From positions 1 through 37,699 of IMG/VR virus record IMGVR_UViG_3300047200_000206: a stretch of DNA of 37,699 nt; one strand, 5' to 3'. Made by a program: the position numbers and the translations under genes. Below, one piece after another: positions 15,360 through 37,699 of this stretch. The DNA comes from a virus. Below the pieces are notes generated by a model that saw only the letters and a list, made by a program, of their open reading frames with translations, was not told where the DNA came from and ran no database searches. The stretch's first letter is position 1, and the number at the start of each line of letters is the position of its first letter.

Positions 15360-18300
15360 ATGTCGTCAGTCATAGTTTTTAATGGGATATCATATACTAT
15401 CCCCGATACTAATGATGTATCGTGGGGTGCTTCAGTAACAGCCTACCTCAAGGCAATACCAGGAGGAGTGCTAGCTAAGACAGGTGGAGCTTGGCACTTA
15501 ACGTCAGCAGATCTAGACCTAGGAGCAACCTACGGGGTAGCATCTCCTTACTTCAAGAGTAAGACAGCTTCGATCTCTGCTTCAGGCGTTCTCAGACTAG
15601 CCTTGACAGATCTGATCACATGGAGAAAAGACGGCTCCTCAGATTACAGGCTAGGCGTAGGATCTAACGGCTTCGCTACATGGGAGACAATAGACCTAGT
15701 AGACGTTAGCTCTATTCAGACTCTAACTAATAAAGTGATAGATGCAGACTTAAATACGATCACTAACATCAGAGGACTTAACCTAGCTCCTGATGCAGCA
15801 ATAGCTTACTCACAGCTTCAGATCAATCCTGGTGATATTCCTTACGCAGCACTTACTCTCACAGGTCAGATAACTAACGCAGATATATCTCCTACAGCAA
15901 ACATAGCAGGATCGAAGATCAATACAGACTTTGGCCCTTCTACTATCATAACATCAGGTGGCCTTAAGCTAGGCACTACCAACTTCGTAACTCTTAACGC
16001 AGATCCTAGCGCAGATTATGACTTTACCTTCCCTGATACGGACGGTATAGACGGGCAAGCTCTCGTAAGACAATCAGGTGAGCTCGTATGGGCTTCTATT
16101 CCAGGCTTATCCTTGCCACACTATAACGTAACGGTAGGAGATGCTAGCAGCCTGCCTCAAGCTGTGGATACTTCAGTAGTAGGCGATATCCTAGCTGATC
16201 CTACAGCGGGATTAACGATCAAGAGCAGCGTAATTATAAACGACATGGTTTCTCTTACTGCTGGAATAGAGTTCGCTAAGATGGAAGCTCTCACAGGTGA
16301 TAGAGCACTTCAGACTGACTCTTTCGGAGTAGTAGAAGCATCGGCGACTACAGTAGCAGAACTAGGATACCTCTCAGGAGTAACTAATTCAGTACAGACT
16401 CAGCTCAATGGTAAAGTAACAGGACCAGGATCAGCGGTTAGTGATGATATCGCTATATTCAATGGAGCTACAGGGTCAATAATTAAAGACTCAGGAGTGC
16501 TTCTCTCTAGTTTGGCTACTACTACAGCATTGAGTGCGAAGGTAACAGGACCAGCAAGTGCGGTGGACTTAGATATTCCTGTCTTCGATTCTACAACTGG
16601 AAAACTAATTAAGGACTCAGGAACTAAGATAGCTGATCTAGCTACTGCTTCTAGCATCCTTCCATTCTCTCAACGTGTCACTGACTCAGGAGATCCTATT
16701 GGTTTAGTAGGAAGTCCTACAGTTACCTATCAAGGAGCTAGAACCGTAAGAATAGCTCATCCTTTTGCTTATTGGTATAAAGGTACGAGAGTATCATCGG
16801 TAGCAGATATTGACGTTCAAGTGCCTAACGTAACTGGAAATTACTTCATAGTATTCACAGACGCAGCACTTACAACTACTTCAACCACAACTCCTGATAT
16901 TATTAATCAGGTAATGTATGCAGGGCTCTACTGGAACGCAGCTACCTCAGATTATATGTTCTTTGATGAGAGACATGGAATATCATGGTCAGCAAGCGAA
17001 CACGCTCATGATCACCTTGTTTATGGTGCTAAATATGAATCAGGTGGTAGCGCAAGTGGTTATACTCTAAATAACGATACACTTACTAATGTTCAGATTG
17101 CTATTGGATCTACGAGCTTTTGGGATGAAGATATAAAGAACGTACTAGCTGATAAGTTAAAAACAGACTCTTTCGATAAGTGGTACAGATCTGGAGTAAA
17201 TGGAGATTGGGCTAAAGATACAGGGGATTCTATTCCTGCTTTCTGGCTTGCTAACGTACCTAAGATCAATACCTTCTCGGCTACATGGGCTTTGACTAAC
17301 GTACCAAGTGGAAACTTCTTTAATACTTACATCATGGCTACTAACTCTAAGGAAACAGCCAATAGATTTATTCTTATTCCAGGACAGACTTCTGTAAACA
17401 GCTTAACAGCGGTGCAGGCTATCTCAATTAAATCTCTATCGCTTGGAACTTTGCCAGTTAGAGAGATTATAGCTATGTATCAAATTACTATGGAGTATCA
17501 GAGCGGTTTTAACGGAAACAACGCAAGGATCAGAATAAGGTCGGTTACAGACTTAAAAAATACTGTTTCCCCTGGAATATCTAATACAAGCTCTAACCAT
17601 AATTCACTCGCTGGTAGGTCAGACGCAGACTCTCATCCATCGAGCGCAATTGGTAATGATGTATCAGCTTTCAATAAAATCCTATCGAGTGCTAATACAA
17701 CTGTTCAATCGGCACTTGATTCCCTAGATGATGGAGCCGTAAACGTAGCCGGCGATACCATGACTGGAAACCTTCTATTTACTGGTGATGCTGCTAAAAC
17801 TGTAGGAGTTAACAGAAATACTACTACAGATACAGCTGGAGTAAGTTTCACCCATACAGCAGGTGGAGCTACTTCAGCAGCTACCGATAAAGCAGGTGGA
17901 GACTTGATCTTATCCTCTGGTATCTCTACAGGAACGGGAACTTCTACCATACAGCTTCAGACTGCTACAGCAGGAACAACTGGAACAGCAGATAGAACAC
18001 CGACAACTAAAGTAACTATACTTGGTAACGGTAACGTAGGAATTGGTACTTCTGGCCCTACGCAAATAATAGGAATAGACGGAACAGCAGCTAGAGTAAT
18101 TGGTATGGAAAGAGCTACATCTGGCAGTGTTGGTAACTCCCTAACTGTAGTTGCTGGAGGCAGTCAACCAGGGACTAGTAATCAGGGTGGTGGCAACTTA
18201 ATTTTAGACTCTGGGTCTACTACAGGAACCGGAGCTTCAGATATTCAGCTAAGAACTACAACGGCTGGAACTACTGGCACTAGCAGCAGGGCTCCAAGTA

Positions 18301-20438
18301 TAAAGATGATCATCAAGGGTAATGGCAACGTAGGTATTGGTACTTCTGGCCCTACTTCATTACTATCGGTAGCAGGAGATGTTGGCTTAACAGAGATTGC
18401 TACTCCTACAGCTCCAGCAGCGGGTATAGTTAAGGTCTACGCTAAGACTGACGACAAGCTCTATATCCAGAACAGTGCAGGAGTGGAGACACCTGTAGGC
18501 TCAGGATCAGGTAGTAGCTCAGAGATTAACTACATCTCTAACCCACTCTTTGAAGAAACTGCTAACGCCGCCGTACCTACCGGATGGGTAACGTATGCAG
18601 ATGCAGCAGCAGCAACACCTGTAGATGGTACAGGAGGATCTCCTACTGTTACTTTCACAGCTTCTACTTCATCACCTATCAGAGGACTTGTCTCAGCGGT
18701 CTTTACTAAAGATGCAGCTAACCGCCAAGGTCAAGGCGTAGCTTATGCTTTCACTATTCCAGCGGTAGATAAGGGTAAGCTCGTAGGAATCAACTTCGAT
18801 ATCACTCCAGGGGGATCTTATGCCTCTAGCGATATGTCGGTATATGTTTACGATGTTACTAACTCAGTTCTAATTACTCCAGCAGCAGTGAGCTTACCTA
18901 ACTTAATCGGCACGTTCACAACTAGCTTCGGATTGACAGCAGGAACTAGCTATAGGCTGATCCTTCATGTGGCTTCGACTAACGCAAGTGCTTATACGCT
19001 TAAGATCGATAACGTATCTGTAGGGTACAAGCCTACTCCTCAAGGCGCGGTGGTTGAAGGTATTAGGACGAAATCTTATGCTACTTCAGACTTTGGTGCC
19101 GTTACAGGTGTTACTATCTCAGCCACGACTAATAAAATAATAAACTGGCGAGTAGGTGAAACCTTGAGAATGGCTGGAACAATCTTATTCACTAATGCTG
19201 CTGCTGGGTCCGACAACTCTGGTGTCACTATGAACCTACCAATAAGCGGTATAAGTATTAGGGACAATAACGGCACATCAGACAGGTACGCAGGTATTAA
19301 CTTGAATGAAGGGGTTCAAGGAAGTGCTACAGAGGTATCAGGGATTGGATATGCAGTTAGAGCTTCAGGAACACAACTACAGTTTTATACAAACAACAAC
19401 GTAATCGTCAGAGGAACAGACATTAGAGATGCTACCGGATATCTCTACTCACTGGGAATCGACATAACAATCCCAATCGCCGAATGGGCAGGAAGCGGCA
19501 CAGTAAACCTAGCGCAGAATGATGTTGAGTATGCGAGTAATAGTTCTACTACAGGTGCAGGAGACACAACAAGTTTCGCTTATGGACAAGCAGGAAGTTT
19601 AATTCCTACATTCAACTCTGCCGCAACTACAGGATCTTATGATAAGTATGTTAAGTTTCAAAGTCCCATTCAGTCAGGAGATAAACTTACCATAGAGATC
19701 CAAACAGGAGGAACGGGTAACTGGATTCCCCTTGAGGAGCATGATCGTTATGCAAAAGCTGGCAGGCTTGACGGTACTGCAAAGTATTATGGTATGTATA
19801 TTGGATCTGTAGATTCTACAACATTGTTAGTTGGATTCGGTATCTATGGATCTAATCTTCCTGCTACTTGGGGTGGTACTTCTGGTAATTACCCGATAAC
19901 AGCCAACGACCGATGGCGAGTCCGCAAAACTTCGGCCGGTGCTGCTGTGGGGTTCGGTCAAGTGTCAGAGAACAGCTCAGGACTATTCCCAGCATACAAC
20001 ACCAACTTAGATAACGCTACAGCTACGAGACTAGGGCTTAAGCAGTATCTTCATGGCACTACTTATAATGGGGGTAATGCTCCTACTGTTACTCTTAGTT
20101 CTGGTGGTGGAACATTATCTGCTATAACAAGGGCTATATTTGTTCCATATCAATGCCAAGATAATACTTGGAGAATGAGATTTACTGTCAATGCGGTAGT
20201 ATCTAGTGCAACGAGAACAAGTGCTTTTTTTGCTGTAGCTGGAGTAACCACTAAAAATGTAGCGGGTTATGCTCAAAGTATTGCGGCTTCAGAAGGTAAT
20301 GGATCAATAACTACAACTACAGCGTATTGTGATTCGAACGCTAATACCTTCGGACTATTTCACGCTAGTGGTAGTTCTACCATATATAGATTATCTGGTG
20401 ACGTAGAACTAGAATCAAAACCAACATGGGCATACTAA
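15360..20438 (+). CDS. Tail fibre / receptor-binding protein
   Basis: 1692 residues, the longest gene. In order: an N-terminal anchor; TNKVIDADLNTITNIRG and YSQL-type fibre repeats (about 120-190); LGYLSGVTNSVQTQLNGK (about 335); two 42-residue repeats (KVTGPGSAVSDDIAIF, then KVTGPASAVDLDIPVF); GDTMTGNL (about 798); two 98-residue repeats each ending GNGNVGIGTSGPT (889 and 987); a carbohydrate-binding-like domain opening with NYISNPLFEE (1057); and beta-rich tip domains ending KPTWAY. No S74 chaperone motif was seen. It recognises the host surface. The modular build suggests exchange of domains. Confidence 0.88.
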   Translation: MSSVIVFNGISYTIPDTNDVSWGASVTAYLKAIPGGVLAKTGGAWHLTSADLDLGATYGVASPYFKSKTASISASGVLRLALTDLITWRKDGSSDYRLGVGSNGFATWETIDLVDVSSIQTLTNKVIDADLNTITNIRGLNLAPDAAIAYSQLQINPGDIPYAALTLTGQITNADISPTANIAGSKINTDFGPSTIITSGGLKLGTTNFVTLNADPSADYDFTFPDTDGIDGQALVRQSGELVWASIPGLSLPHYNVTVGDASSLPQAVDTSVVGDILADPTAGLTIKSSVIINDMVSLTAGIEFAKMEALTGDRALQTDSFGVVEASATTVAELGYLSGVTNSVQTQLNGKVTGPGSAVSDDIAIFNGATGSIIKDSGVLLSSLATTTALSAKVTGPASAVDLDIPVFDSTTGKLIKDSGTKIADLATASSILPFSQRVTDSGDPIGLVGSPTVTYQGARTVRIAHPFAYWYKGTRVSSVADIDVQVPNVTGNYFIVFTDAALTTTSTTTPDIINQVMYAGLYWNAATSDYMFFDERHGISWSASEHAHDHLVYGAKYESGGSASGYTLNNDTLTNVQIAIGSTSFWDEDIKNVLADKLKTDSFDKWYRSGVNGDWAKDTGDSIPAFWLANVPKINTFSATWALTNVPSGNFFNTYIMATNSKETANRFILIPGQTSVNSLTAVQAISIKSLSLGTLPVREIIAMYQITMEYQSGFNGNNARIRIRSVTDLKNTVSPGISNTSSNHNSLAGRSDADSHPSSAIGNDVSAFNKILSSANTTVQSALDSLDDGAVNVAGDTMTGNLLFTGDAAKTVGVNRNTTTDTAGVSFTHTAGGATSAATDKAGGDLILSSGISTGTGTSTIQLQTATAGTTGTADRTPTTKVTILGNGNVGIGTSGPTQIIGIDGTAARVIGMERATSGSVGNSLTVVAGGSQPGTSNQGGGNLILDSGSTTGTGASDIQLRTTTAGTTGTSSRAPSIKMIIKGNGNVGIGTSGPTSLLSVAGDVGLTEIATPTAPAAGIVKVYAKTDDKLYIQNSAGVETPVGSGSGSSSEINYISNPLFEETANAAVPTGWVTYADAAAATPVDGTGGSPTVTFTASTSSPIRGLVSAVFTKDAANRQGQGVAYAFTIPAVDKGKLVGINFDITPGGSYASSDMSVYVYDVTNSVLITPAAVSLPNLIGTFTTSFGLTAGTSYRLILHVASTNASAYTLKIDNVSVGYKPTPQGAVVEGIRTKSYATSDFGAVTGVTISATTNKIINWRVGETLRMAGTILFTNAAAGSDNSGVTMNLPISGISIRDNNGTSDRYAGINLNEGVQGSATEVSGIGYAVRASGTQLQFYTNNNVIVRGTDIRDATGYLYSLGIDITIPIAEWAGSGTVNLAQNDVEYASNSSTTGAGDTTSFAYGQAGSLIPTFNSAATTGSYDKYVKFQSPIQSGDKLTIEIQTGGTGNWIPLEEHDRYAKAGRLDGTAKYYGMYIGSVDSTTLLVGFGIYGSNLPATWGGTSGNYPITANDRWRVRKTSAGAAVGFGQVSENSSGLFPAYNTNLDNATATRLGLKQYLHGTTYNGGNAPTVTLSSGGGTLSAITRAIFVPYQCQDNTWRMRFTVNAVVSSATRTSAFFAVAGVTTKNVAGYAQSIAASEGNGSITTTTAYCDSNANTFGLFHASGSSTIYRLSGDVELESKPTWAY
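17795..18360 (+). repeat. Two 294-base internal repeats in the fibre gene
   Basis: Two 98-codon units share GGDLILSSG/GGNLILDSG, TGTGxSxIQL, TTAGTTGT and the end GNGNVGIGTSGPT. The identical ends at 18024 and 18318 are similar at DNA level too (GGTATTGGTACTTCTGGC-like). They probably arose by duplication and give a repeating trimeric shaft. Confidence 0.75.
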
Positions 20439-20455
20439 CATAGAAAGGAACAGTC

Positions 20456-20752
20456 ATGGCACTGAAACTTACAAGAGACTTAGGGAATGGATACCAAGCT
20501 GAATATTTCAGAATAGGATCTTTCTCAATCGATGTAGATGCAGCACTTCTTAATGTTACACTTCTTCTCTATAAAGACGAGCAGTCACGTAGAGATGGTA
20601 AGGAGCATATTAAAGCTAGTTCTGCGATAATTATCTTCCCTTCGTCGGATGATATTAAGACATTCATTACAGACATAACGGGATCACTTGCTTGTGCTAT
20701 TTACTGCAAGGTTAAAGAGAGCGAAGAGTACACCACAGCTATTGATTGCTAG
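20456..20752 (+). CDS. Hypothetical virion-region protein, 98 aa
   Basis: 98 residues behind AAAGGAACA, the same ribosome site as for the scaffold gene. It is beta-rich (EYFRIGSFSIDVDAALLNVTLLLYKD) with no membrane segment and no known family. Its place right after the fibre suggests a fibre-associated, chaperone or tail protein; no direct evidence. Confidence 0.65.
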   Translation: MALKLTRDLGNGYQAEYFRIGSFSIDVDAALLNVTLLLYKDEQSRRDGKEHIKASSAIIIFPSSDDIKTFITDITGSLACAIYCKVKESEEYTTAIDC

Positions 20753-20764
20753 AAAGGAACAGCC

Positions 20765-21058
20765 ATGTTTTTGAACGAGAAAGAGAAGAGTCTTAAGAGT
20801 AGAGCGTTAGAATCGCTTATGGGCAAGATCGATGAGATGGATAACAGCAAGCTAGGCGGTAAGAAGCCTGTAGCTGAAGAAGCTGTACCTGTAGAAGGTG
20901 AAGAAGAAGAAGGTGAGCTCGGCGAGTACATGAAAGAAGCTGGACACGAAGGAGTAGAGGCAGAAGAAGCTAAGCTGTTCCCTGCTGAAGAGGCTATGAG
21001 CGTTACTCCTGAGCAAAAGGCGATGATCGAGGAGCTCTACAATAAGTTCGTCAGATAA
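20765..21058 (+). CDS. Acidic small protein, 97 aa
   Basis: 97 residues with AAAGGAACA ahead of the ATG. A basic helical start (LNEKEKSLKSRALESLMGKI) is followed by a long Glu-rich stretch (VEGEEEEGELGEYMKEAGHE) and a helical end. It is probably flexible; it may be a tail assembly helper or a small internal protein. Eleven bases separate it from the tail tube A gene. Confidence 0.6.
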   Translation: MFLNEKEKSLKSRALESLMGKIDEMDNSKLGGKKPVAEEAVPVEGEEEEGELGEYMKEAGHEGVEAEEAKLFPAEEAMSVTPEQKAMIEELYNKFVR

Positions 21059-21069
21059 TAGAGGTAACT

Positions 21070-21987
21070 ATGAGTGCTTATACTACGCTAGATCTAATCA
21101 AGAGCGTTAAGGTCAGAGGTATGTTTCCCGATGCTTCAGCAGGTACGTTCTCAGCAGAGAATATCTTGCTCCTAGCTTCTGAGGAGATCAGATTACAAGT
21201 TGTTCCTCTGATCCTAAGTGCGAGAGAGAAGTATTACGAGACATTCGTAGACTACGATCTTATAGCTAATCAGGCGATCTATCCTATCCCAGAGAGAGCA
21301 GTAGGAGGGATATGCAGCTTGATTCAGTATATCAACAATCAGGCTGTAACTAACATATCTCCACTAGATCCTACGAGCGTAGCTACTACTCAGACAGGGC
21401 TCTATCCTAGAGGATTCTACTTCGAGAACGATCACATTGTTATCTACCCAACACCTAACGCTACTCAAGGCGTAGTTAGAATGAGATATCCACAGAGGAC
21501 TTCTCTTCTAGTAACTCCTAGCGAATGTGCTCAGATCACAGAAGTAGACTCGGTAGCTGAGACTGTAACCGTGACAAGTTATCCTTCATCATGGGCAAGT
21601 GCTATTAAGGTAGACTTCGTGAGTAACACAGTTCCTTACACTCCTTACGGCCTCGACTACTCTATTAACGTGATCACTCCAGGAATGAGCGACTCTGTGA
21701 TTAGCTTTGTAGATCTTCCTAAGAACAGAGAAGGACTACTTCAAGTCAAGGTCGGCGATTGGCTGGCTCCTGCTGGATACACTTGTCTTCCTGAGGTGAT
21801 GAGTGAGTTCTTCCCGTTTCTGGCTCAGCTCGTAGTTGTTAAGCTCCATGAGGCAGATAACAACCAAGAGGCAGCAGGAATCGCTATGAAGAAGTTGCAG
21901 GAATACGGAGAAACAGCGATCAGGCTAATCACTCCTAGGGAACAGTTCGGTCTTAAGAAGATCAAATCAGATTGGAGAAACTGGTAA
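21070..21987 (+). CDS. Tail tube protein A-like head-tail connector
   Basis: 305 residues. The N-terminal helices (SAYTTLDLIKSVKVRGMFPD, NILLLASEEIRLQVVPLIL), YPIPERAVGG and the beta region, then a helical end with LVVVKLHEADNNQEAAGIA, fit the gp11/gp4-type tubular protein A of podoviruses. It attaches the tail to the portal. Its TAA shares one base with the next start (TAATG), so the two are coupled. The tube B-like gene follows immediately, as expected. Confidence 0.78.
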   Translation: MSAYTTLDLIKSVKVRGMFPDASAGTFSAENILLLASEEIRLQVVPLILSAREKYYETFVDYDLIANQAIYPIPERAVGGICSLIQYINNQAVTNISPLDPTSVATTQTGLYPRGFYFENDHIVIYPTPNATQGVVRMRYPQRTSLLVTPSECAQITEVDSVAETVTVTSYPSSWASAIKVDFVSNTVPYTPYGLDYSINVITPGMSDSVISFVDLPKNREGLLQVKVGDWLAPAGYTCLPEVMSEFFPFLAQLVVVKLHEADNNQEAAGIAMKKLQEYGETAIRLITPREQFGLKKIKSDWRNW

Positions 21988-24596
21988 TGAGTCAATCTCT
22001 AATGATGAAACTGAGGGGACTTTATACGTTCCCTAACGATATGAGTGCAGTTCCAGAGGGAGCTTTATCGGTAGCGGATAATATCGTGATCGATAAGGAC
22101 TCCATAGCCGAGCCTAGAAGAGGACTAACCTTCGCTTCTCTCAGCGATCTTACTAGAGCTGACTTTGCTACAGGTGAGATGCTAGAGAGGATCTTCTTCT
22201 ACAAAAACGGGATACTTTCTCTCGTCCACAATAATACAGGCCCATACGATCATCTTAAGTATTTCTCCCCTGCTACCTCAGGGTGGAGAGATAACGATGG
22301 TCCGTTAGGTGAGCTCTGGGACGTAGCACTATTTAGCGATATCAAACCTCAGTCTCTACAGGAGCGAGGAAACCTATATATCACGACAGCAGAAGGTCTG
22401 ATTAAACTAGATGCTCTTAACGCATACCCTGAGTATGCTGGGCTTCCAGTAGCTAGGGATATTAAGGCAGCTTCACCTCTTTTAGTTTCGACTAGTAGTC
22501 CCTACTGGCTAGCAGTTAACTATGCAGTTTATTATAAGACTACGATTGTAAGAACAGACGCTAATGGAAATGAGTATGAGAGTGCCCCTAGCTCACCGTT
22601 CTATCTTAAGAACGATACTAGTGACCCAGCTTCTCCATACTATAATCCAGGCAACCCATCTGGTTATCCAGTATCTACCAATATTGCAGTATTCTATCCT
22701 AGCTTTGTTAAGGTAGGAGACAAGATCAGGGTATATAGATCTGCTTCTAGCTTAAGTCCTAACATAGGTGAACTTCAGTTATGCTTTGAGGAAACTATAG
22801 ATATCCCTACAGGCGACACTCAAGTTTTAGATGTATGTATTGATGAGATGCTAGGAACAGCATTATACACTAGTAACTCAAGAGAAGGATCAGAGTCTTC
22901 TAACTTTCCTCCTCCTCTAGCCAAAGACATAGCTTTATTTAGAGACTGTGTCTTCCTATCTAACTTCACCGAGACTCCTGATCTATACCTCACTCTAAAG
23001 TCTACTGCTGCTGCTGGTAGTGCTAACGTGAACAACTTTCGTGCAGGTGATACTCTTACTATCGCAGGCGTAGTATTCACTGGTGTTGTAGGAGTTCCTA
23101 CAGGGGCTCAGTTCACCGTAATAACAGGAGGAACTACTGAGTATAACACAGCTCAGACGATGCAGAGCTTATCAGCAATGATAAATCAATACTTTGCTAC
23201 TTCTACCTCTGGCCTGCAATCCTCCTATGTGGTCAATATCCAGGAAGATCTCATAGGTAGAATACGAATATGGAGAAAGAGCTTCGAGGCGTCTACTTTG
23301 CAGTTTACTGTTAACTCAAATCGTCCTAAGGCTTTCATACCTAATATGGTAGGAGGGGCGTTATCATCTAGTTATAACGTAGTTCCTAACGGTCTAGCTT
23401 GCTCAAAGCCAAGTATTCCAGATGCTTTCCCATTGAATAATCAGTGGTTTGTAGGATCGAGAGATGAAGCAATCTATAGAATTCTTACTCTCAGGGATTC
23501 TTTATTCATCCTCAAGGAGGATGGAGTGTGGAGACTTTGGGGAACAGATCCGAGTAACTTCCAGATCGCACTTCTTGATGGTACGGTTAAATGCATAGCT
23601 CCTGATGGTGCTCTGGTACTAAACAACCAGATCTTTGCTCTTACTACTCAAGGGGTTGTTTCTATTACAGAAAACGGTGTGACAATTGTATCACGTCCTA
23701 TAGAAAGGAACTTACTGGATCTACTTGCTACAGATGCAGCGGATATGTTCCTGAACGCCTTTGCAGTAGGCTATGAGTCTGAGAGATCGTACACTCTCTT
23801 TCTTCCTACAGTAGCAGCTGATGTATATCCTACTCAGTATTACCGCTATAACGTGATCACAAACAACTGGACGAGAGGCACACTAGCAAAGGCTTGTGGC
23901 GGCGTGAATCCCTATGATGATCGAATGTACTTAGGTGATAGGACTCATAAGTGGATGGACGTAGAGCGCAAGAGCTTTACATCATTCGATTATGCTGATT
24001 ACGTCAATACTCTATCGATCACTTCTTCCTCTGGTAGCACAGTAGTATTCAATGCAGGAACTAGCGATCTAGTGGCTGGAAGAGTTCTCTATCAGCTTGA
24101 TACTCGTTGGTGTGAGATTGCTTCTGTTTCTAATGTTGGAGCTGTCTATACTGTTACATTGAAATATCCGATCACGTTCTTAACTGGAGCAGTTCAGATC
24201 TTAGATCCTATAGACTGCAAGATTAAGTGGACTCCTAACGCTTTCCAGAATCCAGGTATCAATAAGCACTACAGAGAAGCTACTTTGATCTTCCTGAGTG
24301 ACTTCTACGGCCAAGGCACAGTGAGCTTCGAGACAGATCAGTATCCTCAGATCCTCTATGAGACAATCGAGGGATCTATGGCCTCTCCTTGGGGTCTATT
24401 CCCCTGGGGAATCGCTCCTTGGGGTGGTAACTCGCCTAGAAGACGTCCTGTGAGGATAGCAGTACCTAGGAATCACAAGAGAGCAAGCTGGCTAAAGGTA
24501 GGCTTTGAGCATGATGTGTGCTTCAGTCCTTGGAAGATCCAAGGTATCAGCGTAATCGGCACGAATATCAGCGAGAAAGTTGGTACAGATACATGA
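21987..24596 (+). CDS. Tail tube protein B-like / tail stabilising protein
   Basis: 869 residues from ATG 21987, which follows TTGGAG. A TTG start at 21972 would be part of that ribosome site. The opening LRGLYTFPNDMSAVPEGALS, and the ending WGLFPWGIAPWGG and HKRASWLKVGFEH, are like the beta-propeller nozzle protein of podovirus tails. Residues about 336-440 carry an inserted beta domain related to the 14792 protein (GVPTGAQ; MQSLSAMINQ). It forms the tail nozzle. The ATGA overlap leads to the next gene. Confidence 0.78.
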   Translation: MSQSLMMKLRGLYTFPNDMSAVPEGALSVADNIVIDKDSIAEPRRGLTFASLSDLTRADFATGEMLERIFFYKNGILSLVHNNTGPYDHLKYFSPATSGWRDNDGPLGELWDVALFSDIKPQSLQERGNLYITTAEGLIKLDALNAYPEYAGLPVARDIKAASPLLVSTSSPYWLAVNYAVYYKTTIVRTDANGNEYESAPSSPFYLKNDTSDPASPYYNPGNPSGYPVSTNIAVFYPSFVKVGDKIRVYRSASSLSPNIGELQLCFEETIDIPTGDTQVLDVCIDEMLGTALYTSNSREGSESSNFPPPLAKDIALFRDCVFLSNFTETPDLYLTLKSTAAAGSANVNNFRAGDTLTIAGVVFTGVVGVPTGAQFTVITGGTTEYNTAQTMQSLSAMINQYFATSTSGLQSSYVVNIQEDLIGRIRIWRKSFEASTLQFTVNSNRPKAFIPNMVGGALSSSYNVVPNGLACSKPSIPDAFPLNNQWFVGSRDEAIYRILTLRDSLFILKEDGVWRLWGTDPSNFQIALLDGTVKCIAPDGALVLNNQIFALTTQGVVSITENGVTIVSRPIERNLLDLLATDAADMFLNAFAVGYESERSYTLFLPTVAADVYPTQYYRYNVITNNWTRGTLAKACGGVNPYDDRMYLGDRTHKWMDVERKSFTSFDYADYVNTLSITSSSGSTVVFNAGTSDLVAGRVLYQLDTRWCEIASVSNVGAVYTVTLKYPITFLTGAVQILDPIDCKIKWTPNAFQNPGINKHYREATLIFLSDFYGQGTVSFETDQYPQILYETIEGSMASPWGLFPWGIAPWGGNSPRRRPVRIAVPRNHKRASWLKVGFEHDVCFSPWKIQGISVIGTNISEKVGTDT

Positions 24597-27075: not shown

Positions 27076-28596
27076 ATGCCTATCAATAGAATGTACGAAG
27101 ATGAGCTTAAGGATCAGCCAGATTACTATCAGGACTGGGCTCAGCCATACTTGAAACAAGATCTTCCAGAGGATCAGTCTTATCCTGCTTTATCTCAAGC
27201 TCCTAAGGAAGTTCTCCGAGATCCTAGCAAGAAGCTACCAGCAGATCGTAGCCCTGTAGATTATCCTGTAGGAGATAGCAGACTAGATGCAGAGAGAGGT
27301 CAGAGATATAAAGCCAAGGTCTACACTGAGCAGCTCTATGATGCCTTGAACAAGGGTGAGGATATTAAGACAGCTAGAGGTAAAGCATCTAACTTAGCGA
27401 TGATGGCCGATGTAGGTCAAGCACTTGCAGGAATGGCTACAGCTCAGTCAGTAGGCAGAGGCGGCCCTGGAGCAGATAAGTCAATCTTCGATGGTATCAG
27501 GCAGAGAGCAGCAACACTTCCTAGAGATGCAGAGGAAGATAGGAAGTCTAAGATCACTGACTACCTTACTAAGAGAAAGTTAGGACAGGAAGCTACTGAG
27601 GAACTTGCAGGATCTAGGAAAGAAGACGAGCTTATTAAGCTACAAGATCCTACTAGCGATATATCGAGAAGTTACCAGCAGATGTTCAAGTCTACTTACG
27701 GCAAATATCTGAAGGAATTCGAGACACAAGATCCGAATACAGGCGACTCGTATAATGCTATCGACACTATGTCAGCAGCAGATCTAATGAAATCTAACGA
27801 GCTTCTTAAGGGTAGAGCGCAGCTAGATATGGCAGGAGAGATGGCACAGCAGAGAGGATCTATGGCTCAGCAAGCTCTTGATCTTCAGAAGGAGAAGATA
27901 GGATTAGGTAGAGAGTCTCTTGGTATCCAAAGAGATAAGATGAATATGCCTAGAGCTACCACTCCTCAGAGAGAAAGATCGCCAGAAGAGATAGATGCTA
28001 TCAAGGCTAAAGCAGAACTAGATAGAGCTAGAGCAGCGGCACTTGGTAAGGATAAGGAATCAGCAGTATCTCCTACAGGAGAGCCACTAGCAGCAGGAGA
28101 GGATATTCCTAACAGTCTCAGGTCTAAGGCACTTTCCGAGAAGAAGGCTCTTGATGAGTTCAAGAAGGTGAAGGATAACGTGCTTAGGTCTTATGACGAG
28201 GGTGGCAAGTTCTCAGTTATTAGGGGTAACGCTCCTAGCTGGATGGGAGGGTCAAGATCTGAGTTTCAAGCATATAGAGCGATGATAGCTTCTCAGGTTA
28301 TCAACAAAGTTCCTGGTATCAGATCTGACTCTGACTTCAGGAATATCGTGGAGCCAATGCTTCCTTCTCCTGGAGATCCTAAAGAGACTATCGCTACTAA
28401 GAAGAAGTTATTTGAGGACTTCATCAACTCGGTATCTCCTGAGACTACGACCTATGATTCGATCTACGGATCTAAGAATAAGTCTGAGACACCAGCTTCT
28501 AGTGTGCCTCTTGTTACTCCTGATATGGCTGGCAGCAAGATGATCGGCGATGTTCTCTATAAGAAAGTTCCAGGCGGGTGGAGGAAAGCAAAATGA
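27076..28596 (+). CDS. Internal virion / ejection protein 3
   Basis: 506 residues; AGGAGAG upstream. The protein is polar, helical and Lys/Arg/Asp-rich, with LAMMADVGQALAGMATAQS (about 115) and coiled regions (IGLGRESLGIQRDKM). The C-terminal part has SQVINKVPGIRSDSDFRNI and KKVPGGWRKAK. No enzyme motif was seen. It probably belongs to the ejected complex. The stop overlaps the next start by ATGA. Confidence 0.6.
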   Translation: MPINRMYEDELKDQPDYYQDWAQPYLKQDLPEDQSYPALSQAPKEVLRDPSKKLPADRSPVDYPVGDSRLDAERGQRYKAKVYTEQLYDALNKGEDIKTARGKASNLAMMADVGQALAGMATAQSVGRGGPGADKSIFDGIRQRAATLPRDAEEDRKSKITDYLTKRKLGQEATEELAGSRKEDELIKLQDPTSDISRSYQQMFKSTYGKYLKEFETQDPNTGDSYNAIDTMSAADLMKSNELLKGRAQLDMAGEMAQQRGSMAQQALDLQKEKIGLGRESLGIQRDKMNMPRATTPQRERSPEEIDAIKAKAELDRARAAALGKDKESAVSPTGEPLAAGEDIPNSLRSKALSEKKALDEFKKVKDNVLRSYDEGGKFSVIRGNAPSWMGGSRSEFQAYRAMIASQVINKVPGIRSDSDFRNIVEPMLPSPGDPKETIATKKKLFEDFINSVSPETTTYDSIYGSKNKSETPASSVPLVTPDMAGSKMIGDVLYKKVPGGWRKAK

Positions 28597-30629
28597 GTGA
28601 TTTTATATCCGATGAAGAGATGCGGAAGCTAGAGTCTTCGGAATCTCCTGATTTTATACCTGACGAGAGTCCTTGGATGCCAGAGCAGAGCTTTACTCCT
28701 ACCTCAAGGACAGAATCAGCTCTTAGAGGTGGAGCGCAGGGATTAACCTCAGACTTTGCGGACGAGATAGCGGCAAGGATCAGATCTCAGATGGAAGCTA
28801 GGCCATACGAAGAAGTTCTCCCTGAGGAGAGGACAAAGTTCAAGCAGGCTCAAGCATCTCATCCAGGATATTACGGAGCCGCTCAAGTAGGAGGCGCAGT
28901 AGCTCCTTGGCTCATTCCAGGTGGAGGGGCAGCGGGTGCAGCGATAAGAGGGTCTAAGTGGGTAGCTCCTATAGCAGCAGGAGCTTTGCAAGGGTATGGA
29001 GCTAGTGAAGCTGAGACAGTAGGCGAGGCACTACCAGACGCAGCTATCGGCGGGATCTTCGGACTAGGAGGAGCAGCAGTAGGTAACGTGATCGGGGCTA
29101 CTCCTGGAGCTGTGAGAAACTTTGCATCGAATAGAGCAGCAGCACAGCTAGGAGCTGAGAGAGGAACTATCAAGTCTCTCGGAGCTGATAGGGTTCAGCA
29201 AGCAGGAGCTACAGCTCTTAAGGAAGGAGTTCTAAGTACGAACACTCCTCTTATGCAGAAAAGAGCAGGAGCACTTAGCAAGTCTTCTGGCAGCAGAATC
29301 GGCGAAATCAATCAGATGATCGATGAGACAGGAGAGAGATACTTTTCCCCTCAGTCGGCGGCTGGTGAGTTTAGGAAAGAAAGTGGCGGATTCTACGAGT
29401 CACCACTCAATAGAGATATCAAGAATCAGTACGATAATATCATCGAGGCTATTAGCGGCCTAGGAGAGGATAATATCGGTATCATCCAGGCTCAAGAGCT
29501 TAAGGAGCAGTTAGGTAGAGCTGCTAAGTTCGATAAGCCGATGAGAGATGATAAAGCTCTGATGGCAGGAGAGGCGTATCATGTAGTTAAGAAGCATCTT
29601 GATGCTGCTGTTACTAAGGGAGAACAGGCTCTAGGTAAGACAGACGTTCTAGCAGATCTCTATAAACAGAGGAAGCTCTACGGCGATACTAAGGTTATGG
29701 AGAAGCTGCTTACGAATAGATACGCTAGAGAGCAGGGCAATAAGATGAATACAGGTCTTACTAACACCACAGTAGGATCTCATGCTGCTCAAGTAGCTGC
29801 TTCTGGTAATCCTCTAGCTGCTGCCTCAATATACGGCGGAAAGATCGGCTATGAGAGATACGGTAACATCTCTATGGCTCATGGAGCAGACAAGATCGCT
29901 AAGGTCTTAGAGTATATGCCGAACAAGTTTGGCAAGTACGCTCCTCTTATGTCTCAGGCCATTAGACAAGGGCCAAAAGCGTTTGCTATCCAGCACTTTC
30001 TCATGGCTAGTCGAGATCCTGAGTATACTAAGATGGTAGAGCAGGCTGTACTTGAGGCAGAGAAGGAAGACGAAAAAAAAAAGCAGATAGCTCCTATTGA
30101 ACCCCCTTCCTTAGGACAGCAGCTAGGATCTGCTATAGATAACTTCTCATGGACAGATAAGATCGGCCTTGATCCTCAGGAGAGGGGAGAGGAAGGTCTA
30201 TACGCAGAGCAGCTACCTTCAATGGCTATGGCTCCATTTAAGAAGATGAAGAAACCTGATATCTCATACAAAAAACCAGATTGGTTCCATGTAGGGAATG
30301 ATAATATTAGATTACTACAGAAGGACTTCGATCGTAATTATATCAATGAGCTCGCAGATTCTATTAAGAAAAATGGTTGGGACGGCCCTGCTATATTAGA
30401 TTATGGAGGTCAGGCAATAAATGGGACTCATAGAATCAGGGCTATTAGACAGCTTATGAGAGAAAATCCAGACATTGACTTAGATATACCAGTGATAAAC
30501 GTATATGATTACGTTAACGACTATATGCAAAAAACAGGTAACACTTCTATAGACTATAGGGATCTTAGGGCTATTTTTAAAGGCACAGACCTAGAGGATG
30601 AAGTTAAGAGAAACATCAACGATTGGTGA
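28593..30629 (+). CDS. Ejection protein with membrane-active segment and C-terminal ParB-like nuclease domain
   Basis: 678 residues; ATG 28593 follows GGAGGAAAG. Residues 45-70 (ALRGGAQGLTSDFADEIAAR) and the Gly/Ala helices at about 100-190 (AGAAIRGS, IGGIFGLGGAAVGNVIG) match membrane-inserting internal virion proteins. After a helical core, a Lys/Glu stretch with an A10 tract (residues 494-497) leads into a linker and then residues 562-678. These resemble the ParB/sulfiredoxin fold: YINELADSIKKNGWDGPAIL and INGTHRIRAIRQL. The last 370 bases are AT-richer than the rest, so the tail is probably a late addition. It may enter the cell with the DNA. Confidence 0.75.
   Translation: MSDFISDEEMRKLESSESPDFIPDESPWMPEQSFTPTSRTESALRGGAQGLTSDFADEIAARIRSQMEARPYEEVLPEERTKFKQAQASHPGYYGAAQVGGAVAPWLIPGGGAAGAAIRGSKWVAPIAAGALQGYGASEAETVGEALPDAAIGGIFGLGGAAVGNVIGATPGAVRNFASNRAAAQLGAERGTIKSLGADRVQQAGATALKEGVLSTNTPLMQKRAGALSKSSGSRIGEINQMIDETGERYFSPQSAAGEFRKESGGFYESPLNRDIKNQYDNIIEAISGLGEDNIGIIQAQELKEQLGRAAKFDKPMRDDKALMAGEAYHVVKKHLDAAVTKGEQALGKTDVLADLYKQRKLYGDTKVMEKLLTNRYAREQGNKMNTGLTNTTVGSHAAQVAASGNPLAAASIYGGKIGYERYGNISMAHGADKIAKVLEYMPNKFGKYAPLMSQAIRQGPKAFAIQHFLMASRDPEYTKMVEQAVLEAEKEDEKKKQIAPIEPPSLGQQLGSAIDNFSWTDKIGLDPQERGEEGLYAEQLPSMAMAPFKKMKKPDISYKKPDWFHVGNDNIRLLQKDFDRNYINELADSIKKNGWDGPAILDYGGQAINGTHRIRAIRQLMRENPDIDLDIPVINVYDYVNDYMQKTGNTSIDYRDLRAIFKGTDLEDEVKRNINDW
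30072..30083 (+). other. A10 slippery tract inside the ejection protein gene
   Basis: Ten consecutive A (30073-30082) follow G and precede G. In frame they read GAA AAA AAA AAG. A shift to -1 gives a stop after five more residues (ADSSY), and +1 ends after two (SR). Slippage by RNA polymerase or ribosome would therefore yield a form of about 500 residues lacking the ParB-like domain. No clear downstream stimulating structure was identified. Confidence 0.4.
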
Positions 30630-30671: not shown

Positions 30672-31003
30672 AGTATCCAACACATTGCCCCTCGTGTCGG
30701 ATTTTAACTGCAAACGGGATCGGAGCTGACGATACACCAGAGCTGAATAAGTTCCTGCAAGCTCTGCCTAGTAGCCACTTGTTCTACGAGGCGAGTGTAG
30801 GACACGATCTTAATTTTCATCTTGCGAGAACTAAGGAGGATGTTAAGAGAGCAAACGAGATCTTCCTTGCTGATATGCTAGAGGCTTGCAAGTCTAAACC
30901 TCTATGGCAGAGATGGTTTTGGAGGATACAGGCGTATCGTAACTTCTACTTCGTGGATGCTTACGGAGAGCAGTTCTGCGACTTCAGAGGGTGTGAGGGC
31001 TAG
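30668..31003 (+). CDS. Small phage protein, DUF1353-like (tentative)
   Basis: 111 residues from ATG 30668; AAGGAAGTG upstream. After HCPSC, the segment FYEASVGHDLNFHLARTKED is followed by ANEIFLADMLEACKSKPLWQ and RWFWRIQAYRNFYF. The His-Asp followed by a helix with spaced charged residues recalls DUF1353-type small phage proteins and, more loosely, phospholipase A2-like folds. It could have a lysis or virion role. The family call is a guess. Its end overlaps the holin-like gene on the other strand by four bases. Confidence 0.55.
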   Translation: MKYPTHCPSCRILTANGIGADDTPELNKFLQALPSSHLFYEASVGHDLNFHLARTKEDVKRANEIFLADMLEACKSKPLWQRWFWRIQAYRNFYFVDAYGEQFCDFRGCEG

Positions 31004-31266
31004 GAGTCCTTCTCTCTAGTCTGGCACTTCCTGCAAGCTCGTTCCACGTTCTCCAATCGTTTCTCCAGATAAACTATAACAGTGTTTCTTTCAGCCATAG
31101 TCACTCTCAGTGAGTTTATATCCTTGGTAAGCTCCTCAAGAGACTGAAGGATATCCTTGATTGCTGCATCAACGGTGTTCTTGATTGATCCAGTTAGGAA
31201 GTAAACTAACCCACCAATGGCTCCACCTACAGCGCAAACTAATGCGATTATTGATTGAGAATCCAA
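31000..31266 (-). CDS. Holin-like membrane protein with coiled coil
   Basis: The preferred start is TTG 31266, behind AGGGGGG, giving 88 residues. ATG 31287 and GTG 31350 would add 7 or 28 residues, the latter with a second membrane helix. SIIALVCAVGGAIGGLVYFL is one clear membrane segment, followed by a long coiled coil (SLEELTKDINSLRVTMAERN) and a basic Cys-containing end. This layout fits small phage holins or holin partners. It is transcribed against its neighbours. The start is uncertain. Confidence 0.55.
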   Translation of the reverse strand: MDSQSIIALVCAVGGAIGGLVYFLTGSIKNTVDAAIKDILQSLEELTKDINSLRVTMAERNTVIVYLEKRLENVERACRKCQTREKDS

Positions 31267-31309
31267 TGGTTTATCCCCCCTGTGCATAATTTTGGCATAG
31301 GAATAGTAT

Positions 31310-31338
31310 ATCACGATTAGGACAACCTGAGGTATAAT
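31310..31338 (+). promoter_or_regulatory. Candidate promoter for the lipoprotein gene
   Basis: A perfect TATAAT (31333-31338) lies 34 bases before the ATG of the metallopeptidase lipoprotein. The -35 at the right spacing (ATCACG, 31310-31315) is poor. The box lies over the upstream region of the holin-like gene on the other strand, so the two may share this control region. Confidence 0.4.
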
Positions 31339-31371
31339 AATATAAACCACAAAATTTATCGGGGGGTAGCT

Positions 31372-32238
31372 ATGCGAAGTTTGCTTTGGATTCTAGGCAT
31401 ATTCACATTCATGGCTTGTGGAGCTCAGACAGTGGAGCCGGCGGCTAAAGTATCGTTCACTCGTACCTTCTTACCTCAAGAGCAGGAAAAGTCTTATCAG
31501 GGATCTGATTGGTACGGCGTGGGTGGAATAGACGAGAATACTTTCAACGCTATCATAGATGTTGCTGATCAGGTCTACACTCCTATTCTCAAGAAGAACG
31601 GTCTGACTCTAGTATTCGATCGTCAGTGGAGCTCGGAAACGGTCAATGCTTACTGCCAACGTGACACAGAACTAGTCACAGTTTCTCTATTCGGGGGTCT
31701 AGCTCGTTTAAAAGACATGACACCAGAGGGATTTTTGCTTGTGGTGTCCCATGAAATAGCTCATGCAATGTCTATTTATCCTCTGTATTCGGGCAGTTGG
31801 GCTAGTAGCGAACAATCCAGTGACAATATGGCGGTGCAGCAGATAGCTAGGAAGCTCTTTGCGCAGGAATCGAGTGGCGGCGAAGATAAGTGCAATTGCG
31901 GGTTTGCTCCTGATTATAACCGTAAGATCAATGACTACTGTGCTAAGTTCCAGGATGAAGAACAGAACATCATCTGTAAGAGGTCTATGGCTGGAGGACT
32001 TGCTCTAGGTAAGGTATTAGCTTCGCTCGGAGGTGAGCCTATTCCTTCTTATGAGACTCCATCGAGAACTAGAGTGAAAAAAACACAGACATCTCACGCC
32101 TCTGCTCAGTGTAGATTAGATCAGTATGGAATAGCTGCTTTGTGTGAGAAGACTATCCCAGAGGCACCGTTTCTTAGCACTAAATCAAAAGCTATGCCTT
32201 ATATCTGTTCTTATTCTCCTTGCTGGTTTACTCAGTAA
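31372..32238 (+). CDS. Secreted metallopeptidase lipoprotein
   Basis: 288 residues behind GGGGGGTAG. The signal peptide (SLLWILGIFTFMAC) ends at a lipobox with Cys16, so the mature protein is lipid-anchored. The zinc motif HEIAH (127-131) sits in a hydrophobic helix. WASSEQSSDNMA (143 on) offers Glu147 or Asp151 as third ligand, as in gluzincin-type peptidases. Seven or more cysteines in the second half suggest disulfides and a periplasmic place. It may aid lysis, change the outer envelope or exclude other phages. The pattern recalls Bdellovibrio lipoproteins. The gene may be host-derived. Confidence 0.7.
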   Translation: MRSLLWILGIFTFMACGAQTVEPAAKVSFTRTFLPQEQEKSYQGSDWYGVGGIDENTFNAIIDVADQVYTPILKKNGLTLVFDRQWSSETVNAYCQRDTELVTVSLFGGLARLKDMTPEGFLLVVSHEIAHAMSIYPLYSGSWASSEQSSDNMAVQQIARKLFAQESSGGEDKCNCGFAPDYNRKINDYCAKFQDEEQNIICKRSMAGGLALGKVLASLGGEPIPSYETPSRTRVKKTQTSHASAQCRLDQYGIAALCEKTIPEAPFLSTKSKAMPYICSYSPCWFTQ

Positions 32239-37491: not shown

Positions 37492-37699
37492 TTATTTGAA
37501 CACATACTCAGTTTTAGTTTCATAAGACATAGGGAATCCCTTGATGATCGCTTCATCACCACTAAGATTGTTCTCAGATAAGTGAGCTTTGAGCTGTCTC
37601 ATGCTATCAAACTGCTGCTTTACATCGACAATGAAATACTTTGGCTGCTGACGTGTTGTTTTCTCGCAAGTATCTTCTGCTTCAAACGGATCGTGTGTC
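37492..37699 (-). CDS. Junction-spanning 69-aa hypothetical protein, right copy
   Basis: The same gene as at 1-176, here with its stop (TAA 37494-37492) but missing the first two bases of the ATG. The last residues (SYETKTEYVFK) lie outside the repeat, on this side only. Codon 43 is GAG (Glu) here and GAT (Asp) in the left copy. Twelve bases separate it from the ATG of the interrupted gene, whose ribosome site starts two bases after the stop. Confidence 0.7.
   Translation of the reverse strand, partial: THDPFEAEDTCEKTTRQQPKYFIVDVKQQFDSMRQLKAHLSENNLSGDEAIIKGFPMSYETKTEYVFK
37526..37699. repeat. Terminal direct repeat, right copy
   Basis: Matches 1-174 in full length except C37573 (A at 48). 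The repeat ends at the window edge, so its true length may be greater. See the left copy for interpretation. Confidence 0.9.

Follow-up and report, generated by a model that had tools for sequence, protein, structure and literature searches.

A putative phage ejection protein with a C-terminal domain of predicted ParB/sulfiredoxin fold

The window, by which we mean the whole stretch of 37 699 nt that was analysed (IMG/VR record IMGVR_UViG_3300047200_000206), carries the same 174 bases at both record ends (1-174 and 37526-37699, with one mismatch), indicating that the genome (about 37.5 kb) is probably complete. Its late block comprises terminase, portal, capsid and tail genes followed by four consecutive large proteins, the fourth of which is the 678 aa protein described here (Table 1). 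Families recognised in this block were terminase (phrog_2), capsid (phrog_14242) and virion/internal protein (phrog_3287/511), whilst the portal gene was recognised by similarity to an annotated portal protein. The ATG start of the frame encoding the 678 aa protein overlaps the stop of the preceding gene (ATGA overlap). A preliminary description of this DNA had proposed that the last part of the fourth internal virion protein is a ParB-like nuclease tail, citing the peptides DSIKKNGWDGPAIL and INGTHRIRAIRQL. Both peptides lie where they were said to, within a single open frame, and the placement of the tail at the C-terminus of a protein encoded in the internal virion protein block is supported.

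Table 1. Features of the putative ejection protein gene and its immediate surroundings (window coordinates)
Feature	Coordinates	Strand	Basis or remark
Whole gene: putative ejection (internal virion) protein with predicted ParB/Srx-fold domain, 678 aa	28593..30629	+	Open frame; phrog_5880 and Silvanigrella phage matches
Core common to relatives	28593..30050	+	Alignments with G001 protein and Silvanigrella phage protein, shuffle-tested
Run of ten A's (A10), read GAA AAA AAA AAG (contains A AAA AAG), candidate slippage site	30073..30082	+	Homopolymer scan
Linker, residues 498-551	30084..30245	+	In-frame translation, codon usage, G+C 0.50
Predicted ParB/sulfiredoxin-fold domain, residues 552-678, 127 aa	30246..30626	+	HMM, profile-profile comparison, AlphaFold model
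Next gene, 111 aa	30668..31003	+	Starts 38 bases past the tail; overlaps the core gene end by 4 bases in G001 and G004

The core of the protein has recognisable relatives at both of its ends. Residues 31-207 match phrog_5880 (E 4e-9), a PHROG family with no assigned function, and a late-block protein of a Silvanigrella phage (E 8e-9) matches residues 26-208 when the frame is started at GTG, an alignment of the N-terminal ~200 residues that was equalled in 0 of 1000 shuffles. Gly/Ala-rich hydrophobic stretches are present at residues 98-118 and 143-170, and a conserved C-terminal core motif ending RDPEY occupies residues 448-482. Two close syntenic relatives were compared, G001 and G004, which display the same gene order, portal proteins 75-80 % identical to that of the window and a 683 aa protein at the equivalent position. 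The latter is largely without recognisable similarity to the 678 aa protein, apart from its C-terminal end: the final 40 residues in G001 can be aligned with residues 448-482, as well as in none of 1000 shuffles, the relatives' sequence in the RDPEY region reading KYERMMS..SDPKKSAINHYILMNRDPEYQALI versus KYAPLMSQAIRQGPKAFAIQHFLMASRDPEYTKMV. Compared with 19699-21750 of G001, the core is a mosaic: its N-terminus resembles the protein of the distant Silvanigrella phage more closely than those of the 75 %-identical relatives, and its C-terminal RDPEY motif is common to the latter. Elsewhere in the window, a 1692 aa protein (15360-20438) has ends 50-57 % identical to G001 and a poorly matched middle, and judging from this pattern is likely a receptor-binding tail protein. 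Two genes at 31000-32238 lie, as a block, in the opposite orientation to their counterparts in G004 and G001 (22890-24132 in the latter); they encode a small protein of membrane type and a lipoprotein weakly like M48 metallopeptidases.

Past RDPEY, the G001 and G004 proteins continue for 9 residues, against 200 in the 678 aa protein. As the relatives end just after this motif and the next gene overlaps the core there, the tail is best seen as an addition between the core gene and the next gene. A ParB_N search of four related records (G001, G002, G004 and the Silvanigrella phage) gave no match; whether the same tail is common to all relatives had been raised as a point to check, and those compared are without it, suggestive of an acquired accessory domain. 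The preliminary description had also begun the tail at 30072 and called its DNA AT-richer than that upstream. AT-richness holds for the domain (30246-30626, G+C 0.362) and fails for the linker, whose G+C over 30084-30221 (0.50) and codon usage are like those of the core; the composition step sits near 30246 (Met552), where the domain proper begins, rather than at 30072. A search of the linker region against phages gave no match.

The linker bears directly on whether core and domain form one protein. Its codon usage score was 0.35 in the fused frame, compared with 0.087 at the 95th percentile for wrong frames, and no ATG, GTG or TTG occurs in it before 30222. Being coding yet devoid of start codons up to that point, the linker indicates that the domain is translated via the core as a fusion, and the same two properties speak against the domain as a separate gene. 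Homopolymers are error-prone, and a misassembled or phase-variable A run would shift the frame so that the core ended there and the ParB-like protein was a gene of its own, as might be suggested by the domain having its own Met552 and stand-alone relatives. We consider this improbable, given that the 46 codons separating the A run from the first ATG have coding-type scores when read in the fused frame and offer no start, and that no well-spaced Shine-Dalgarno sequence precedes 30222 or 30246.

Profile and model evidence together predict that the tail domain has the ParB/sulfiredoxin fold. PHROG ParB-like families match residues about 544-648 (E 1e-4 to 3e-3; best 1.1e-4, with the tail alone as query). 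Pfam ParB_N matched the protein below threshold (E 0.12), and a ParB_N search over the whole window record returned 30318-30455 as its sole match (E 0.004). Aligning a profile of the tail and its Bifidobacterium relatives to a phage ParB-domain profile with hhalign gave 92.6 % (E 4.5e-7), with 200 column-shuffled profiles reaching at most 4.9 % and a reversed profile 0.2 %, a result to be read with caution as the sequences of the ParB set came from a locus itself found with the tail; that locus is independently recognised by Pfam as ParB_N (E 3e-5). An AlphaFold2 model from 12 sequences reached a pLDDT of 79 and a pTM of 0.67 and depended on that alignment, which includes bona fide ParB sequences; a run with four sequences was poor (pLDDT 47.5). 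The best Foldseek E value of the model against structures was 3.6e-4, and its PDB matches by Foldseek and VIA-align were nearly all ParB, Noc, KorB, PadC, sulfiredoxin, free serine kinase or SbnI, with structural Z of 7 to 9.9 to ParB, Noc, Srx and SerK. In secondary structure the model runs E-H-E-E-H-E, GTHR opening the second helix, and the tail thus has the beta-alpha-beta-beta-alpha-beta core and the GxxR turn before the second helix that characterise the ParB/sulfiredoxin superfamily. With a profile from which ParBs were left out, sulfiredoxin was the top PDB sequence match (E 0.3). A phmmer search of the PDB with the tail alone matched only an unrelated enzyme, indicating that single-sequence searches are insufficient. 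The ParB/Srx resemblance first noted from the peptides therefore stands above background, with HMM searches (weak matches, but consistent ones), hhalign and its shuffled controls, and AlphaFold2/Foldseek all in agreement.

Relatives of the domain were found as separate genes. Bifidobacterium phage BigBern1 (QIG78221) and two IMG/VR contigs encode a stand-alone 122 aa homologue, which aligns over 101 residues (578-678) through the last Trp at 33-36 % identity and has in common with the tail a family-specific C-terminal end, L.AIF.GT..E...W. The BigBern1-type protein is like the tail over the length of the domain but, unlike it, is the product of a separate gene unfused to a virion protein. The existence of such stand-alone homologues indicates that the domain is an autonomous unit. 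Carriers of the homologue are Bifidobacterium phages or prophages, and in the IMG/VR contigs the 122 aa gene sits near integrase/recombinase genes. Downstream of the stand-alone ParB-like gene, contigs L015 (2699-4789) and L016 (3430-5520) both have a 285-aa-type gene, common to the two, and a second tyrosine-recombinase-like gene. Genome contigs were scanned twice without a relative of the tail coming up, and the full-length 678 aa protein had no relative in viral contigs. One candidate relative of the tail, L003, proved false, its MRENPDID patch lying in an unrelated exonuclease-like ORF.

Partition ParB proteins have a GERRxRA motif and a central helix-turn-helix for parS. The pocket motif of the tail is instead GTHR (30423-30434, residues 611-614; GTHRIRA in an extended reading), and the domain, the last 127 aa of the protein, leaves no room for further domains, so that both the parS-binding helix-turn-helix and the dimer domain of ParB/Noc are lacking. 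TIGR00180 covers only positions 21-69 of 186 with E 0.026, far under the family cut-off. The N-terminal CTPase domain of ParB/Noc nevertheless has the same fold and gave the best structural matches to the tail. Sulfiredoxin also has this fold along with a GxHR pocket motif (GCHR in sulfiredoxin), of which the tail lacks the catalytic Cys, and the free serine kinases SerK and SbnI have it as well. The superfamily holds CTPases, ADP/ATP-dependent kinases, sulfiredoxin and reported nucleases; these mixed activities make a nucleotide-dependent activity likely, with nuclease as just one option, and an NTP-dependent activity (nickase/nuclease or phosphotransferase) seems likelier than a parS-type partition function. 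The nuclease activity in the original proposal is not supported: the fold is common to CTPases, kinases and sulfiredoxin as well as to reported nucleases, the motif is GTHR rather than GERR, and we saw no nuclease-specific feature and could assign no catalytic residue, the serine-kinase Glu included. It is doubtful that the tail is a nuclease. PADLOC returned a weak match of 30246-30626 to the defence protein PD-Lambda-5_A (E 0.007), which may reflect a ParB-like part of that protein.

ParB domains occur in late-gene, virion-borne polyvalent proteins such as DdrB of phage P1 (Iyer et al. 2017, PMC5512222). As in DdrB, which is thought to be injected, the ParB/Srx fold here belongs to a large, multidomain phage protein encoded next to late virion genes. 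The two differ in their carrier, in the present case a podovirus-type ejection protein (putative, by gene position); Pfam ddrB-ParB (PF18763) had no match in the window at E values up to 10, and Pfam detected no peptidase or other polyvalent domain on the 678 aa protein. Ejection proteins of P22, T7, N4 and T4 are delivered with the DNA, and injected proteins with enzymatic functions have been described (PMC8402733). P22 gp7/gp16/gp20 and T7 gp14-16 are like the 678 aa protein in late-block position and general type, whilst no sequence match to it was found among them. The P22 and T7 proteins are not known to carry a ParB domain. A fusion of ParB to an ejection protein or an internal virion protein was looked for in the literature, and none came up among the papers covered.

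The analysis established by computation the fold, where the domain begins, its absence from relatives and its fusion to the core as a single translated frame. On these grounds we think it fairly probable that a small stand-alone ParB/Srx-fold gene was gained as a C-terminal cargo domain on the last ejection protein. The core would travel in the virion and exit via the portal, either ahead of the DNA or together with it, like the P22 and T7 ejection proteins, and would carry the unfolded tail along. The tail would then refold in the envelope channel or the cytoplasm, and bind a nucleotide (ATP/CTP type) in a pocket formed by GTHR and the neighbouring helix; its target, in the minutes after infection begins, would be DNA, nucleotides or a host protein. 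We infer delivery with the genome from gene position and from the ejection proteins of P22, T7, N4 and T4, and the tail is probably an enzyme carried as cargo into the cell when infection begins. The analogy with polyvalent proteins (PMC5512222) makes it plausible that this enzyme would act against host DNA or host defence. The tail might alternatively work in the producing cell or the particle, for example in DNA holding or in the timing of ejection protein assembly, in keeping with the ability of ParB domains to bind DNA and with a gene that belongs to the late block. However, the tail is without the helix-turn-helix part and the relatives possess the same set of particle genes and no tail, so we regard such a role as quite unlikely. 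If true, the cargo-domain explanation would mean that injected ParB-fold cargo, known from polyvalent proteins of the P1 type, also occurs on the small ejection proteins that short-tailed phages have, and would provide a compact, testable case in which one gained C-terminal domain makes a conduit protein a delivery vehicle.

The A run between core and tail raises the further possibility of two products, whereby slippage on A10, either of RNA polymerase or (at A AAA AAG) of the ribosome, would give a core-only protein of 498-502 aa and the tailed protein, mixed in the virion. This is compatible with the cargo-domain explanation, to which it adds a mechanism. Apart from A10, no homopolymer reaches a length of 8 in the window, where 0.05 A10/T10 runs are expected, and the pattern GAAAAAAAAAAG occurs once, with 0 occurrences in 100 shuffles. 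Slipped frames stop at 30088 (TAG) or 30098 (TGA), within 2-6 codons, such that a run shorter or longer by one or two A's yields a protein of near plain-core length, with KADSSY or KSR as the predicted C-terminus. Elsewhere in the scanned genes KKK is encoded six times, mostly with AAG. Given a KKK peptide, A10 is only mildly improbable (rough estimate 0.1-0.2 per genome). Thermus thermophilus dnaX makes a short and a long product by slippage, which is described there for runs of 9 A or T that have stops close by in both frames (PMC5009743), and the gene described here likewise has a single long frame, an A run of at least that length and nearby stops in both other frames. Two products are established for dnaX, whereas here the likeness is one of sequence. 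RNA folding downstream of the run revealed no stimulatory structure (z about -1, no better than shuffles), leading us to reject a dnaX-like stimulatory hairpin; no second genome with the tail was found in which conservation of the run could be compared; and RNA polymerase of Escherichia coli slips less on A runs than on T runs (PMC6260861). On balance we consider the formation of two products unlikely, and rather unlikely the fuller proposal that slippage on the ten A's yields plain and tailed ejection protein and thereby fixes the proportion of effector-bearing to effector-free conduit subunits injected by each particle. If the run does act as a slippage site, the phage would have a simple means of determining how many subunits are loaded relative to plain ones. 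The run can be broken synonymously as AAGAAGAAG.
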